Shown: positions 1,786-10,393, counted from the first letter of the stretch. The stretch: 64,000 nt of DNA from Dialister succinatiphilus YIT 11850 (GCF_000242435.1 NZ_JH591187.1:1-64000), one strand, 5' to 3'. A program made the numbers and translations. Notes: generated by a model not told the origin, from the sequence alone.

Positions 1786-3440
1786 CTTAGTGTAAAATTT
1801 TACTCGGTAGGGGAATTTTCCAGAAACAATAAAAGAGGAAAGCCTCCCCTTGAGTGGAAATGTTATAATTTCCGTGCACAAATAAAACAAAGAAAGGGCT
1901 TTCCTCATGGATATTATAACAAAAACTGGAGAAATTTGGAGTGAAAATGCAATAGGAGCAGTCATTTCTATCATCAAGGAATCTGATGATTCTATTGAGT
2001 CTGAAAGGAAGTTATCTCATTGGCTCGAAGAAATGAACTGTCAGCTTATAGCTATGGCTCTGGAGCGTATTGACGCGGAGCTGTATCAGATTTACAGGTC
2101 ACAGGGGTGGCGTGTGGCGCGCCGGGACTCCCGGACGATTTACTGTCGCTATGGAGAGCTGACCTATACCCGAAGACTTCTGCAGAAAGATGGGAAGAGC
2201 TTCTATCCCCTGGACCGCAAAATGGGCTTTGAGCCCAGAAAACACTACAGCATGGGAATGATTGAGCGGATTGTCGAGGCTGTCGCAATTACCACATCTC
2301 GAAGTGCCAGCGAACTCCTGCAAAGCCTGGCAGGGATTACCATCTCCCATCAGTCCGTTATCTCACTCAAGAATTATGCCGGTAAGAAGGCAAAGGCTTA
2401 CGAAAAAGCATTGGCAGAAGAGGAAAAGGTTGAAAAGCCGACACAGCCGGAAATTATAGCGATTGAAGGAGATGGAATTGTACTCAAGAACAAGGAGAAA
2501 GGCGGCGTTTCGGAAGTGCACCGCCTCCAGGTATATGAGGGAGTCAGGAAAAATGGCAACAGGACAGAACTGGTAGGACTTCGCTGCTTTGCATCTACCA
2601 GCAGGAAAGAACTTTTTGCAATGGTAAGAAGCTATCTGCTTGGGCACTATGACCTGTCTAAGACCACAGTGCTGTCGAATGGGGATGGAGGGTCCGGATA
2701 CCAGTTTCAGGACTTTGAGCGAATGGTAGAAGGCTGCCTGGATCACCAGCACTTCCGCGACTGCTATCATGTGCATGAAAAGATCCGGAACCGGCTCAGC
2801 TTCTGCAACAAGGAACTGGTAGACCACATTATCCGAGAGCTTCACCGGACCGACAATATTATGAAACAGATTCCGGTATGGATGGACACTGCCCGGAGCT
2901 GCGCCCGAACAGAGGCGGATTTGGAGGAGGTAGACAAGCTGCAGAGCTATCTGGAGAGAAATGCTCCCTATATCCCCAGCCTGAGTCAGCGCGGCATCCA
3001 TACAGAGATTCACCTGGGGACTGCAGAAACAAATCACCGGTTCTACAGCTATCGCATGAAGCGGCAGGGACGGAGCTGGTCCAGCGAGGGAATGGAGTGT
3101 ATGGTTTGGGTATTAACCGCCCGGAAGAATAAAACACTTACAGCAGCTCTCCTGTACCATGCTAATGGGAAAAGCTACAAAAAGATGGATAGAGCCATGC
3201 ACAAGGCTGCGGTGCAGACAGAGCGTAAAATCGCCCAGAATGTCCGGAGTGAGGCGCAGAAGCGTAAAATGAGAAACTATAGGCCAGGATGCCTGGAGGG
3301 GCGTATAGGCGTTTATGGAGCTTCTTCTTCACCAATGGGGAGACTGGCCAGAGCTATACAGAAATACTGATTAAACCGAAGCCACGGAGATAGTAATTAT
3401 CGACAGTCAAATGAATTACCGAGGAAAACTTGACACTTAC
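1786..3440 (+). mobile_element. Complete ISLre2-family insertion sequence
   Basis: The 1655-bp element has imperfect terminal inverted repeats of about 24 bp. The left tip starts CTTAGTGTAAAATTTTAC and the reverse complement of the right tip starts GTAAGTGTCAAGTTTTCC; both continue CTCGGTA, giving 19 of 24 identical positions. The tips are bounded by perfect 9-bp direct repeats (1777-1785 and 3441-3449). One transposase gene fills the inside. The element lies in the gap between the hydrolase stop and the rRNA methyltransferase, so it seems to break no gene. Its left end is also present, inverted, at 1-92. Confidence 0.9.
1907..3370 (+). CDS. ISLre2 family transposase (UPF0236)
   Basis: 487 aa, the usual full length for the family, without frameshift. 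Acidic residues fitting a DDE-type catalytic triad are in EGDGI (about residue 188), NGDGGSGYQ (about 259) and the later AETNHRFYSYRMKRQ block, all typical of UPF0236/ISLre2 transposases. A Cys/His-rich stretch (DHQHFRDCYHVHEK) follows the second acid. The start ATG at 1907 has AAGAAAGGG about 10 bp upstream. The frame is complete and both IS ends are intact, so the element could still be mobile. Confidence 0.93.
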   Translation: MDIITKTGEIWSENAIGAVISIIKESDDSIESERKLSHWLEEMNCQLIAMALERIDAELYQIYRSQGWRVARRDSRTIYCRYGELTYTRRLLQKDGKSFYPLDRKMGFEPRKHYSMGMIERIVEAVAITTSRSASELLQSLAGITISHQSVISLKNYAGKKAKAYEKALAEEEKVEKPTQPEIIAIEGDGIVLKNKEKGGVSEVHRLQVYEGVRKNGNRTELVGLRCFASTSRKELFAMVRSYLLGHYDLSKTTVLSNGDGGSGYQFQDFERMVEGCLDHQHFRDCYHVHEKIRNRLSFCNKELVDHIIRELHRTDNIMKQIPVWMDTARSCARTEADLEEVDKLQSYLERNAPYIPSLSQRGIHTEIHLGTAETNHRFYSYRMKRQGRSWSSEGMECMVWVLTARKNKTLTAALLYHANGKSYKKMDRAMHKAAVQTERKIAQNVRSEAQKRKMRNYRPGCLEGRIGVYGASSSPMGRLARAIQKY

Positions 3441-5503: not shown

Positions 5504-6925
5504 CTATTTTCCTGTATCGAAGAGGGCCTTCTGCTGGGTAAATTCGAGCATGCCGTAAATGCCGCCTTCCCGGCCGATGCCGCTTTCCTTGTAGCCGCCG
5601 AAGGGAGCTGCCGTATCACGGGGGCTGGCATTGATGTATACATTGCCTGCCTGAATTCTATGGGCCATGGCGATGGCTTTGTCCTTGGGACCGTACACAC
5701 CGGCGTTGAGGCCGTAGCGTACATCATTGGCAATGGAGATGGCATCGTCCTCATCCCGGTAGGTAATGACGCAGAGCACGGGCCCGAAGATTTCATCCTG
5801 GGCGATGGTCATATCATTTTTCACATCGGTGAAGATGGTGGGCTTTATGTAGTAGCCCTTATCCGGAGAGTCCGGAAGTCCGCCCAAAAGGAGGCGGGCT
5901 CCTTCATCCATGCCCTTTCTGATATATTCGGAAATCTTTTTGTACTGCTGCAGGGAGGACACAGGGCCCAGCTTTACTTCATGGTTTTCGGGGCTGCCGA
6001 CTGTATATTCTTTGGCGATTTCTGTCAGCTGTTTTTCTATGGTTTCCTTTTCTTCTGCCGGAATGAGGAGGCGGGAGAAGGCAGTGCAGGTCTGCCCGGA
6101 ATTCAGGAAGATGCTGTTGAAGCACAGGTGGATAGGTTCGGTGTAGTCATGATCTTTGGCAGGAAGAATCACATAGGGGGATTTACCGCCCAGTTCCAGA
6201 CTGATATGTTTCACTGACTCCAGGGCCTTCTTGCCTACCGTTACGCCGCCGGAGGTGGAGCCGGTGAAGGAAATCATATCCACCAGGGGATGGGAGGAAA
6301 GGGCATTGCCCACTTCACCGCCCCGGCCGGTAACCAGGTTGAATACGCCTTTCGGGAAGCCGGCCTTTTCAAAGGCTTCTGCCAGGTAATAGGAAGAAAG
6401 GGGCGTATGCTGGCTTGGCTTTAAAATCACCGTATTTCCCATGAGCAGGGCCGGTACGATTTTCTGGATGACCTGCCCCAGGGGATAGTTCCAAGGCGTA
6501 ATGCAGCCGATAACGCCCACCGGTTCCCGGTAGGTGGTGGAATAGGCCATCTTTTCCACCAGAGGAACCTTTGGCGCCAGGTCTATGTAGGAACGGGTGC
6601 GCACGTACTGGTATTCTACCTGGGATGATTTGGTAAAGCTGTAGGGAGAGCCCAGCTCTTTGATGGTGATGTCAATGAGGTCATTTTCCTGGCTTTTGAA
6701 AATGGCAAGGAATTTTTCCATCAGATTGATTCTCTCTGTCAGCGGAAGGGCGGCCCAGGCCGGAAGGGCCTTATGAGCTGCCCTGGCTGCTTTGTCCACA
6801 TCTATTTCATTTCCGGCGGGCACTCGGGCAAAAATCTGCCGGGTGGCGGGATTCTCTACTTCGATAAACCGGCCTGACGCACCGGCAGTCCACTGGCCGT
6901 CAATGTAAAGCTTTTCAAAATCCAC
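5504..6925 (-). CDS. NAD(P)-dependent aldehyde dehydrogenase family protein
   Basis: 473 aa, usual family length. It oxidises an aldehyde to the acid with NAD(P). Visible signatures are TPWNYPLGQ (about residue 143, cofactor and oxyanion Asn region), FTGSTSGG (Rossmann glycine motif), LELGGKSPYV with the general-base Glu (about 245), NSGQTCTAFSR with the catalytic Cys (about 280), and the C-terminal EIFGPVLCV. The mature domain is complete and no key residue is missing. It stands alone between a terminator and its own promoter, so the substrate cannot be told from context. The RBS GGGAGG lies before the ATG. Confidence 0.9.
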   Translation of the reverse strand: MDFEKLYIDGQWTAGASGRFIEVENPATRQIFARVPAGNEIDVDKAARAAHKALPAWAALPLTERINLMEKFLAIFKSQENDLIDITIKELGSPYSFTKSSQVEYQYVRTRSYIDLAPKVPLVEKMAYSTTYREPVGVIGCITPWNYPLGQVIQKIVPALLMGNTVILKPSQHTPLSSYYLAEAFEKAGFPKGVFNLVTGRGGEVGNALSSHPLVDMISFTGSTSGGVTVGKKALESVKHISLELGGKSPYVILPAKDHDYTEPIHLCFNSIFLNSGQTCTAFSRLLIPAEEKETIEKQLTEIAKEYTVGSPENHEVKLGPVSSLQQYKKISEYIRKGMDEGARLLLGGLPDSPDKGYYIKPTIFTDVKNDMTIAQDEIFGPVLCVITYRDEDDAISIANDVRYGLNAGVYGPKDKAIAMAHRIQAGNVYINASPRDTAAPFGGYKESGIGREGGIYGMLEFTQQKALFDTGK

Positions 6926-7161: not shown

Positions 7162-8211
7162 ATGGGTTTACTGGATGAAACATTGAATCAGATTCAGCCA
7201 TTGGATGAAGAGGCCATGGAAAAGGCAGCATTCCGGTGGAAGAATCTGTACACAGGCATGGGGGACTTGGGAAAAATGGAAACCATGGTAACCCAGTTTG
7301 CCGGTGTGACAGGGGAGGCCATGCCGGCGATCCCGAAGTGCTGCACCGTCATTGCCTGCAGCGATCATGGCGTTTATGCAGAAGGGGTTTCCGCCTATCC
7401 TCAGTCCACCACTGTAGGCATGACAAAGGCCTACGTGGAAACGAAGGGGGCTGCAGCCAATGCCATGGCCTATTATGCCCGCTCTGACATGGTGGTGGTA
7501 GACATGGGAATTAATGCTGACATGAGCGGAGTGCCGAACCTCCTTGACCGGAAAATCGCCTGGGGTACGAAAAATATTGCCCAAGGGCCGGCCATGACCC
7601 GCCTGGAGGCGATCCGCTCCATTGAAACGGGCATCGAGATTGCAGACGAAAAGGCCAGGGAGGGGTACCGGGTATTTACCATCGGTGAAATGGGAATTTC
7701 CAATACCACTTCCTCTGCCTGTATTCTGGGTGCTTTCAACCATTGGAATGCCATCGAAGTCACCGGCCGGGGCACCAATATTTCCGATGAACGGCTTCGC
7801 CATAAAATCGATGTGGTGCAGAGGGCAATGGATGTGAACCATCCTGATCCCAATGACGGCCTGGACGTACTTTCCAAGGTGGGCGGTTTTGAATACGGCT
7901 GCATGACCGGCGTCATCCTGGGGGCCGCTGCCAACCATGCCCTCACCATCATTGATGGCTTCAACACTACCGCCAGTGCGTTCATTGCCAAAGCTTTGTG
8001 CCCGGAAGTGGTCCATTACCTTATGGCGTCTCATCTGTCCCTGGAACAGGCCCATAAGAAATCGCTGGCTGCCTTGGGACTGACGGAATACATTGACCTG
8101 GACTTCCGCCTGGGTGAAGCCATTGGTGCCGGCATTCAGACAAGAATGCTGGACTATGCCCTTTCCGTATATCGGGAATGCGCGGCTAAAGAGGAAGAGG
8201 TGAAAGCATGA
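7162..8211 (+). CDS. arsA: ArsA-like alpha-ribotide phosphoribosyltransferase subunit (CobT homologue)
   Basis: 349 aa, a full-length CobT-fold protein. CobT moves the phosphoribosyl group of nicotinate mononucleotide onto the lower-ligand base of cobamides. In Sporomusa ovata and Veillonella, two CobT homologues, ArsA and ArsB, form a heterodimer that can activate phenol and p-cresol. Here GEMGISNTTSSA (about residue 175) and DFRLGEAIGAG with the conserved catalytic-type Glu (about 315) are intact. The next gene is a second CobT homologue overlapping by 4 bp, which is the reason for naming it arsA instead of cobT. The RBS AAGGAGG precedes ATG 7162. No cobalamin riboswitch is visible upstream. 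Confidence 0.8.
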   Translation: MGLLDETLNQIQPLDEEAMEKAAFRWKNLYTGMGDLGKMETMVTQFAGVTGEAMPAIPKCCTVIACSDHGVYAEGVSAYPQSTTVGMTKAYVETKGAAANAMAYYARSDMVVVDMGINADMSGVPNLLDRKIAWGTKNIAQGPAMTRLEAIRSIETGIEIADEKAREGYRVFTIGEMGISNTTSSACILGAFNHWNAIEVTGRGTNISDERLRHKIDVVQRAMDVNHPDPNDGLDVLSKVGGFEYGCMTGVILGAAANHALTIIDGFNTTASAFIAKALCPEVVHYLMASHLSLEQAHKKSLAALGLTEYIDLDFRLGEAIGAGIQTRMLDYALSVYRECAAKEEEVKA

Positions 8212-9230
8212 GTTCCATTCCGAAGTTAAATGAAGATGTGATGAAAGCCTGCCAGCTTTACGTGGATAATCTGATTAAACCGATCCATTCTCTGGGAAAG
8301 CTGGAGGAAATGGCAGTCCGCATTGCCGGTATTACAGGCATTGTCAAGCCTTCCTATCTCAGCAAGGCCCTGGTTATTTTCGGCGGCGATACGGCAGTGG
8401 ACGGAGAAAATAAAACAAAAGGCCAGCTCTCTCATGATGAAATGAAGCTGGTGGCCCAAGGATACGGGCCGGTCAATGTTATTGCCCGGCAGCTGGAGTC
8501 GCCGGTGTACCTCATTGATGCAGGCCTTGAAAAGGATACCTCCGATATAGAAGGAGTGCTTACAAAGAAAATGATTCACGGCACCCATCACGGCAGGCCT
8601 GCCATGGATGATGAGGTGGTGGAAAATGCCATTTCCCTCGGCATGTCTGTGGCCAAAACCCTGGCTGCCCAGGGCGTGGAAGCGGCAGGGATAGGAAACA
8701 TAGGGGAAAGATCCCTTCTCTCCGCCCTGGCAGTGACGGCATCCATTATGAAGGAAGACCTGATGAAAGTTTCTCAGGGAAGCAGCTTCCAGCTCTCTTT
8801 GTCCGGTGTCGGGGATTTTGCCAAAGACCCGGTGGGCAATCTGGCGGAAGTGGGTTCTGCGGAAATTGCAGCTCTCTTTGGCTTCGTGGTGGAAGCGGCC
8901 AGAAAAGGCATGATCGTAGTCTTTGATAATGCAGTGACCGGAGCGGCCGTGCTGGCGGCAGTGACGGTGTATCCGGAAATCAGAAACTTCATTTTTCCTT
9001 CAGTCTATTATGAAGAACCGATTCATAAAATGCAGATGCAGAAACTCAAGATGAATGCTTTCCTCCATTATGATTTCACAGAAGCCGAAGGATTCGGATC
9101 AGCCCTGGGCCTCTCCCTTCTGGATGCGGCCATTGACATGCTGAACCAGATGAAAACCTTTGGCACCGCCGACGTGGATGTGGCCATCGACGGCGCAGGA
9201 AGCGGGAGGCAGAGAAAGGAGATTAAATAA
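8208..9230 (+). CDS. arsB: ArsB-like second CobT homologue
   Basis: 340 aa, overlapping arsA by ATGA and ending on the first base of the next gene, so translation is probably coupled. It has the CobT layout (helical start with IHSLGKLEEMA, then FGGD, then a C-terminal EAEGFGSALGLSLLDAA). It is diverged: the segment equivalent to the GxxGxxNTTxxA loop of CobT reads GNIGERSLLSA (about residue 163), and the RLGE motif becomes AEGFG. Such a diverged partner agrees with ArsAB, where two unequal subunits make the active enzyme. The likely joint product is alpha-ribotides of phenolic lower ligands. Whether it can also use benzimidazoles cannot be read from sequence. Confidence 0.78.
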   Translation: MSSIPKLNEDVMKACQLYVDNLIKPIHSLGKLEEMAVRIAGITGIVKPSYLSKALVIFGGDTAVDGENKTKGQLSHDEMKLVAQGYGPVNVIARQLESPVYLIDAGLEKDTSDIEGVLTKKMIHGTHHGRPAMDDEVVENAISLGMSVAKTLAAQGVEAAGIGNIGERSLLSALAVTASIMKEDLMKVSQGSSFQLSLSGVGDFAKDPVGNLAEVGSAEIAALFGFVVEAARKGMIVVFDNAVTGAAVLAAVTVYPEIRNFIFPSVYYEEPIHKMQMQKLKMNAFLHYDFTEAEGFGSALGLSLLDAAIDMLNQMKTFGTADVDVAIDGAGSGRQRKEIK

Positions 9231-10009
9231 TGAAAGCCCTTTTTATCAGATGCTACGGAAAACTGACGGCAGATATGATGATTGGCGGCCTCATCGACAT
9301 GGGGGTGCCGCCGGTGTACCTGAAATCAAAGCTGAAGGATGCCGGCCTTCCGGACAATTTCATTGAAAAGCCCAATCCGAAAGCTCAGATTTCCGCTCAT
9401 TATTTCCATATCCCGCCCTATGGGGACAAGCCCCTTCTTTTAAAGCAGGCAGACCTTTTCAGAATCTGGAAGGACATCTGCAGCAAAGGAGCGCCGGAGT
9501 GGGAAGAAACGGGATGGAAGGTATTCTCCGCTTTAACGGCCGGCGTGTCTCATGCCATTGATGAAATTCCGGCGGATGTGGTGGACCTCAGGCGGGCAGG
9601 CGTATCGGAGGAAAATCTGATATCCCTTTACCTCTTCCTGGCATGCCTGGACTATCTGGAGGTGGAAACCCTCTTTACCTGTCCCTTTACCATTTCCAAA
9701 GGAAAAACGGAGAAAGGAAAGTCATCGGCTGCTATTTTGACCGATGCCGTTTCCACAGTGGGGAAAGAAGTGCCTGCCGAGGATGTGGATCCTTTTGCAG
9801 CAGCCATGCTGGAAGGTCTTTCGGCTGCCTTCATGCCCATGGACGGCAGGTTCCTTACGGACCGCACTGCCTATGGCAGTTCCAGCGCTGAAAAGCCGAC
9901 AGGCGATAATACCCTGGCAGAATATCTGGGATATTTCACGGACCGTGGAGAGTCTGTCTTCAGCAGGCACATGAAGGTCTTTGGCATGAGCGCAGGATTG
10001 GATTTATAG
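9230..10009 (+). CDS. Degenerate LarC-like protein in the arsAB operon
   Basis: 259 aa; its start overlaps the arsB stop by one base. The layout follows the N-terminal part of LarC, the nickel insertase of the pyridinium-bisthiocarboxylate cofactor pathway. The opening LFIRCYGKLTADMMIGGLID lines up with LarC's LYxDxFSGISGDMxLGALLD, and the later LACLDYLEVETLFTCPF lines up with its LexxxIDRVxxSPL. Key sites are lost: LarC's SGISGDM reads GKLTADM here, and its HFHEVG reads VDLRRAG (residues 118-124). The His-rich loop and the C-terminal LarC2 part are absent. It is therefore unlikely to be an ordinary LarC. A role in lower-ligand or cobamide handling is inferred from the operon only. Confidence 0.65.
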   Translation: MKALFIRCYGKLTADMMIGGLIDMGVPPVYLKSKLKDAGLPDNFIEKPNPKAQISAHYFHIPPYGDKPLLLKQADLFRIWKDICSKGAPEWEETGWKVFSALTAGVSHAIDEIPADVVDLRRAGVSEENLISLYLFLACLDYLEVETLFTCPFTISKGKTEKGKSSAAILTDAVSTVGKEVPAEDVDPFAAAMLEGLSAAFMPMDGRFLTDRTAYGSSSAEKPTGDNTLAEYLGYFTDRGESVFSRHMKVFGMSAGLDL

Positions 10010-10025
10010 GGCTTCTGACTGACCG

Positions 10026-10060
10026 CACCGGCATCTTCTATGGATGCCGGTGTATTTTTA
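10026..10060 (+). terminator. Terminator of the arsAB operon
   Basis: CACCGGCATC, a 6-nt loop and GGATGCCGGTG form a perfect stem followed by TATTTTTATGCTTTTTTT, 17 bp after the stop of the LarC-like gene. Confidence 0.85.
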
Positions 10061-10318: not shown

Positions 10319-10393
10319 GCGGAAGTAGCTCAGTGGTAGAGCACAACCTTGCCAAGGTTGGGGTCGCGGGTTCGAGTCCCGTTTTCCGCTCCA
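10319..10393 (+). tRNA. tRNA-Gly (GCC)
   Basis: Cloverleaf with 7-bp acceptor GCGGAAG/TTTCCGC (last pair G-T), anticodon GCC in CTTGCCAAG, T-arm GGGTTCGAGTCCC, discriminator T and encoded CCA. First gene of the ten-tRNA operon. Confidence 0.95.

Follow-up and report, generated by a model that had tools for sequence, protein, structure and literature searches.

The window analysed here, a stretch of 64,000 nt from Dialister succinatiphilus YIT 11850 (NZ_JH591187.1:1-64000; its own genome is designated G000), harbors three overlapping genes on the + strand. The gene arsA (7162..8211) encodes a CobT-family phosphoribosyltransferase subunit (PF02277, E 5.8e-110), arsB (8208..9230) a second CobT-family subunit with an ArsB-type C-terminal tail (PF02277, E 6.7e-70), and larX (9230..10009) a LarC1-like protein of 259 aa (PF01969, Ni_insertion, E 2.9e-9). 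Re-reading of the window yielded the open reading frames, strands and overlaps (4 bp for arsA/arsB, 1 bp for arsB/larX) exactly as given in a preliminary description of this DNA. Shine-Dalgarno-like sequences are located directly upstream of arsA (AAGGAGG) and before larX (AAAGGAG), and an intrinsic-terminator-like hairpin on the same strand (10025..10053), comprising a 12 bp stem and a T-rich tail, closes the three-gene unit. A search for a cobalamin riboswitch upstream of arsA returned none. Outside the unit lie a divergent aldehyde dehydrogenase gene (5504..6925, - strand; PF00171, E 1.3e-151) and, downstream, a tRNA gene (10319..10390, + strand; RF00005, 69.5 bits) marking the tRNA region behind the locus. 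Elsewhere in the window, an open frame of 295 aa runs antisense to arsA (7168-8055, - strand), which in all likelihood reflects codon usage and is no gene, and an ORF of 487 aa (1907-3370) presumably resembles an ISLre2-type transposase.

The closest solved relative of the window ArsA is ArsA of Sporomusa ovata (4hdk_A, E 6.4e-101), with CobT behind at 2.2e-63, and that of the window ArsB is S. ovata ArsB (4hdk_B, E 1.9e-50; CobT 1.3e-28). The latter match takes in the tail MLN-MKTFG...DG-G--RQ, and ArsB scores below the CobT equivalog cut-off; ArsA keeps the CobT glutamate motif RLGE. Each of the two tandem CobT homologues thus resembles its S. ovata counterpart more than CobT, with the same pairing and the same C-terminal tail on ArsB as in S. 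ovata, which bears out the earlier assignment as genuine ArsAB. The difference lies in the overlapping third gene, as the arsAB homologues examined in more distantly related Negativicutes (L085-L097) have no LarC-like gene behind them. G000 encodes CobS and CbiC as well as proteins matching the B12-binding domain, which makes phenolyl-cobamide synthesis plausible in this organism. D. succinatiphilus appears on a list of predicted phenolyl-cobamide producers (PMC8123684), and arsAB, predicted from tandem cobT genes, is nearly confined to the Negativicutes (PMC6461909).

The third gene product matches PF01969 with residues 8-233, covering profile positions 5-234 of 375, and the LarC2 half is absent. 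LarX does not reach the NCBIfam LarC1 equivalog (E 0.036; 13.8 bits, with the cut-off at 90). Nevertheless, hhalign aligned 11 LarX sequences from Dialisteraceae with 18 canonical LarC1 sequences over 243 columns (99.5%, E 3.2e-22), indicating homology over the whole length of the LarC1 half of LarC (PDB 12bi_D), the nickel insertase that uses CTP (PMC11796402). None of the LarC motifs SGISG[N/D]M, HFHEVG, HG...PAPAT and ELVTPTGA is present in LarX. In the alignment, GKLTADM (residues 10-16; 9257..9277, + strand) stands under SGISG[N/D]M and VDLRRAG (residues 118-124; 9581..9601, + strand) under VHFHEVG, the G-x-G...HG...PAPAT stretch is shorter, and other residues take the place of ELVTPTGA. 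The 18 canonical sequences share, among other residues, invariant E105, H109, H119, E120, D125, D129, H161 and E188. In contrast, the 11 LarX sequences have no invariant His, Cys or Glu, D205 being the sole invariant acidic residue, and possess invariants that LarC1 lacks, among them W80, R207, T228, Y235 and F244.

The AlphaFold2 models of LarX (pLDDT 89, pTM 0.86) and of a canonical LarC1 from a sister family, f4 (pLDDT 89.7, pTM 0.89), show the secondary-structure elements in the same order, the two models not being fully independent as the alignment used for LarX included canonical LarC1 rows. The LarX model lacks one hairpin, which in the canonical protein comprises residues 156-165 beside HG...PAPAT. 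Foldseek gave no significant match of LarX to the PDB, in a library to April 2026 that predates the LarC entries 12bi-12bl; therefore, membership of the fold rests on the sequence profiles and the order of secondary-structure elements. The comparison of predicted structures proposed in the preliminary description agrees with a LarC relationship in the order of elements, save for this one hairpin, and its claims that the motifs are replaced and LarC2 is missing held up in the PF01969 match, the hhalign comparison and the alignment.

We examined 12 genomes of the family Dialisteraceae (f1, with Dialister as genus g1). LarX is present in all 11 informative genomes, always behind arsB; the twelfth (G244, 75% complete) is uninformative, as its contig ends inside arsA. 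The spacing between arsB and larX ranges from -4 to +2 bp, with the exception of G187 (+20), and a contig search revealed a LarX 85% identical in Dialister sp. UBA1703. Hence, the gene is not confined to this strain, a possibility that the preliminary description had left to be checked, and is conserved throughout the family. For pairs with dS under 1, Nei-Gojobori dN/dS of LarX amounted to 0.108 within the genus (G000/G238) and 0.19-0.23 in pairs of genus g3, compared with 0.05-0.17 for ArsA and ArsB and 0.046-0.06 for a control gene encoding an rlmI-like methyltransferase; in most pairs LarX changes faster than ArsA and ArsB. Judged from profiles, alignment and substitution rates, LarX is a true LarC1 homologue that has lost its active site and evolves under purifying selection.

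A gene for LarC2 alone is absent from all f1 genomes examined. Seven of them, G000 included, encode a complete fused LarC elsewhere (in G000, 446 bits at G000:C4:19666-21075). The fused LarC at this position (L031, L053) carries a long His/Glu-rich tandem-repeat insert between LarC1 motifs, perhaps a nickel store. In four genomes (G169, G187, G193 and G217) LarX is present, and LarB, LarE and LarC are all absent. Because of these four, gene content shows the retention of LarX to be independent of the nickel-pincer pathway. LarX differs from LarC in that LarC2 and the active-site motifs are missing and that it persists in genomes with neither LarB nor LarE.

The sister families f2, f3 and f4 of the same order present a different picture. 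In many of their genomes a LarC1 gene with all motifs stands behind arsB, in the same position as larX, and a LarC2-only gene is found elsewhere, beside larB; LarX has neither the motifs nor a separate LarC2. In none of the 61 genomes searched from the order is there a LarC2-only gene without a LarC1-only gene. Among 34 genomes, LarB and LarE, scored above curated cut-offs, are present exactly in those with a LarC, split or fused. LarC1 at arsB is absent where the pathway has been lost or LarC is fused (G050, G065, G070, G096 and others). Because LarC1 tracks LarC2, LarB and LarE, the arsB-linked gene of the sister families is the ordinary LarC1 of a split LarC, and very probably a working one. 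The preliminary description had linked the genes through nucleotide chemistry; such an ordinary LarC1 offers a simpler origin for the linkage. In G163, the two halves are encoded hundreds of kilobases apart (LarC1 at C1:1077615-1078250, LarC2 at 450966-451370), and the distant loci in these families imply that LarC1 and LarC2 can function as separate polypeptides.

Other arrangements occur in these families as well. In the f3 genera g6 and g8, arsAB mostly lacks a LarC-like neighbour. An ArsB-like gene of f2 (L077-L083, L115, L116) has no adjacent arsA, and neither the ArsB tail nor the glutamate of RLGE is preserved in it; the genomes with this lone gene have another CobT-family gene elsewhere. 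A distance of ~11 kb between LarC2 and cobS in f3 and f4 was considered as a functional link and dropped in view of the genes lying between them, including those for a homoserine dehydrogenase, a GHMP kinase, a peptidase and a YdjC-like protein.

The aldehyde dehydrogenase gene is the upstream neighbour common to the f1 and f4 loci, which marks them as derivatives of one ancestral locus. In the tree, f1 LarX sits on a stem branch of 3 changes per site, and its placement is not settled thereby. We therefore argue from locus position and tail, and not from the tree, that larX descends from a LarC1 that was encoded behind arsB in the ancestor of the order, as one half of a split nickel-pincer LarC.

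The loss of motifs behind arsB happened twice. Two f4 genomes (G084 and G112) harbor a motif-less LarC1 relative directly behind arsB that, like LarX, ends in a ..VFG tail; unlike LarX, it is about 200 aa long and arose within f4. Since this copy groups inside f4 LarC1 (support 100/97) and bears weak likeness to f1 LarX (hhalign 28.7%), the motif loss in f4 is independent. Substitutions in the f4 copy at codon positions 1, 2 and 3 (0.34, 0.29 and 0.52; p 1e-3) indicate weaker constraint. LarB, LarE and canonical LarC were not found in G112. About 5 kb away, G084 also contains a canonical LarC1 preceded by a 3′ fragment of arsB; the order in this stretch (L044:9701-17710) is arsA-arsB, the motif-less copy, metF-like and metH-like genes, and then the arsB 3′ fragment overlapping canonical larC1, an arrangement that shows signs of duplication around an insertion.

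In f1 and f4 the gene behind arsB can start -4 to +2 bp from the arsB stop (G187 again being at +20), and a ..[IV]FG tail ends the protein in 15 of 16 sequences, with IFR in G193. In the window LarX this C-terminal tail, with the end KVFG, comprises residues 244-252 (9959..9985, + strand), where the model is of low confidence (pLDDT below 50 from residue 248 onwards). Behind arsB in f2 and f3 the gap measures +2 to +222 bp, and none of the 18 sequences has the tail. Of the hints that the sequences give of a possible contact with ArsB, this co-occurrence of overlap and tail in f1 and f4 is the chief one.

Three of the f1 genomes (G187, G193 and G217, each 99% complete) contain no CobS, CbiC or match to the B12-binding domain. 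Their ArsA lacks the GEMGIxNTTS, TGRGTNISDERL and RLGE stretches, and the DHG motif is gone. In their ArsB, neither the C-terminal tail nor the glutamate of RLGE is left, while GDTAVDG, the GER of GNIGER and FD(N/D)AV(T/S)G are retained. The arsA, arsB and larX frames are open in 9 of 9 cases, with synonymous sites near saturation. Between G217 and G193, substitutions at codon positions 1, 2 and 3 amounted to 0.47, 0.27 and 0.64 in LarX (p 1.5e-8), 0.33, 0.23 and 0.64 in ArsB (p 9.8e-16) and 0.49, 0.38 and 0.71 in ArsA (p 8.9e-9). If cobamides were lost once, in the common ancestor, this constraint acted afterwards; if they were lost twice, it is partly older. ArsA dN reaches 0.64-0.95 in the cobamide-free species, as against 0.16-0.25 for the control gene, and because of this excess ArsA may be on its way out there. 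In these three genomes, gene content shows the trio to be retained independently of cobamides. The idea of a third phenolyl-cobamide protein, as originally stated, is not supported, as these genomes keep the trio without cobamide synthesis or any B12-binding protein and with an ArsA devoid of the CobT signature.

How can these results be reconciled? We tentatively favour, with a confidence somewhat short of even, the reading that LarX is a non-catalytic partner of ArsB, serving as a subunit in cobamide makers and in another job in cobamide-free species. LarX would no longer be an enzyme and would bind ArsB, a contact that we infer, both being made together through translational coupling. In cobamide-making Dialister it would join the ArsA-ArsB phosphoribosyltransferase as a third, non-catalytic subunit with a stabilising or regulatory role; in cobamide-free Dialisteraceae an assembly without the phosphoribosyltransferase signature would be kept for another binding or regulatory job. 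In favour of the partner model are the homology to LarC1, the lost active site, the retention with arsB, the dN/dS values, the independence from the nickel pathway and from cobamides, the new invariants, and the tail together with coupling, and further the second occurrence of motif loss behind arsB in f4. Co-translation and co-retention are circumstantial support for the contact. Against the partner model, ArsAB as such does not need a LarX-type gene, since distant genomes and most g6 and g8 genomes have arsAB without it; the fast change of ArsA in the cobamide-free species and of LarX in most pairs also weighs against it.

Unlikely, yet deserving attention, is the alternative that LarX does something unconnected with ArsAB and owes its place on the transcript to the chance position of the ancestral larC1. 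The neighbourhood of arsB and larC1 may indeed have started as a positional accident: in f2 and f3, LarC1 follows the nickel-pincer pathway rather than arsAB and is missing where LarC2 is missing, and LarC1 is retained in two f2 genomes (G223, G235) that yielded no ArsB. Against this alternative, only f1 and f4 combine the arsB overlap with the C-terminal tail, LarX is never apart from arsB in 11 genomes, and the second motif-less copy also arose directly behind arsB. Nicotinate-derived nucleotides are handled by both the cobamide and the nickel-pincer pathways, and the lineage-specific invariants W80, D205, R207, T228 and Y235 could form a new site; an enzyme or ligand binder for a ribotide, NaMN or a phenolic precursor, along the lines of the preliminary description, is conceivable on these grounds, but we regard it as improbable given that no His, Cys or Glu and just one acidic residue is invariant across the 11 sequences, and that LarX is kept in species without any cobamide metabolism.

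The partner model has further to be held against decay and against unaltered function. All three genes might be slowly decaying relics that in cobamide-free species are merely not yet gone, as the fast evolution there and the loss of the ArsA motifs DHG, GEMGIxNTT and RLGE and of the ArsB tail in G187, G193 and G217 would suggest. This we hold to be quite improbable: every frame is intact despite near-saturated synonymous sites, substitutions are strongly biased to third positions (a part of which may predate cobamide loss if the losses in G193 and G217 were independent), and larX is kept in 11 of 11 genomes, with dN/dS of 0.11-0.23 elsewhere. That LarX still functions as LarC1 in the nickel-pincer pathway, as its counterparts in the same position in f2-f4 very probably do, is hardly credible, as the motifs are lost, no f1 genome has a LarC2-only gene, and four LarX-bearing f1 genomes lack both LarB and LarE while the others have a complete fused LarC.

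Returning to LarX as a partner of ArsB, the long retention of a dead LarC1 behind arsAB even in species without B12 synthesis or use suggests that the three proteins share an undescribed job. It is possible, if on balance doubtful, that in some Dialisteraceae ArsA, ArsB and LarX, a dead enzyme pair joined to a dead maturation domain, form a binding or regulatory complex outside both parent pathways.

In the literature searched, with partial coverage and many subscription papers outside it, we found no paper joining LarC to arsAB, and within this limited scope the statement that no third Ars protein has been described stands. What is new is the proposed descent of larX from the LarC1 of a split nickel-pincer LarC, and its retention both without LarB, LarE and LarC and without cobamides. 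As three near-complete genomes have tandem genes derived from arsA and arsB and no cobamide metabolism, the tandem-cobT rule for phenolyl-cobamide producers can mislead unless the motifs are checked. Taken together, the unit is an example, amenable to testing, of how a cofactor-maturation domain has been turned, apparently twice, into the non-catalytic companion of another enzyme.
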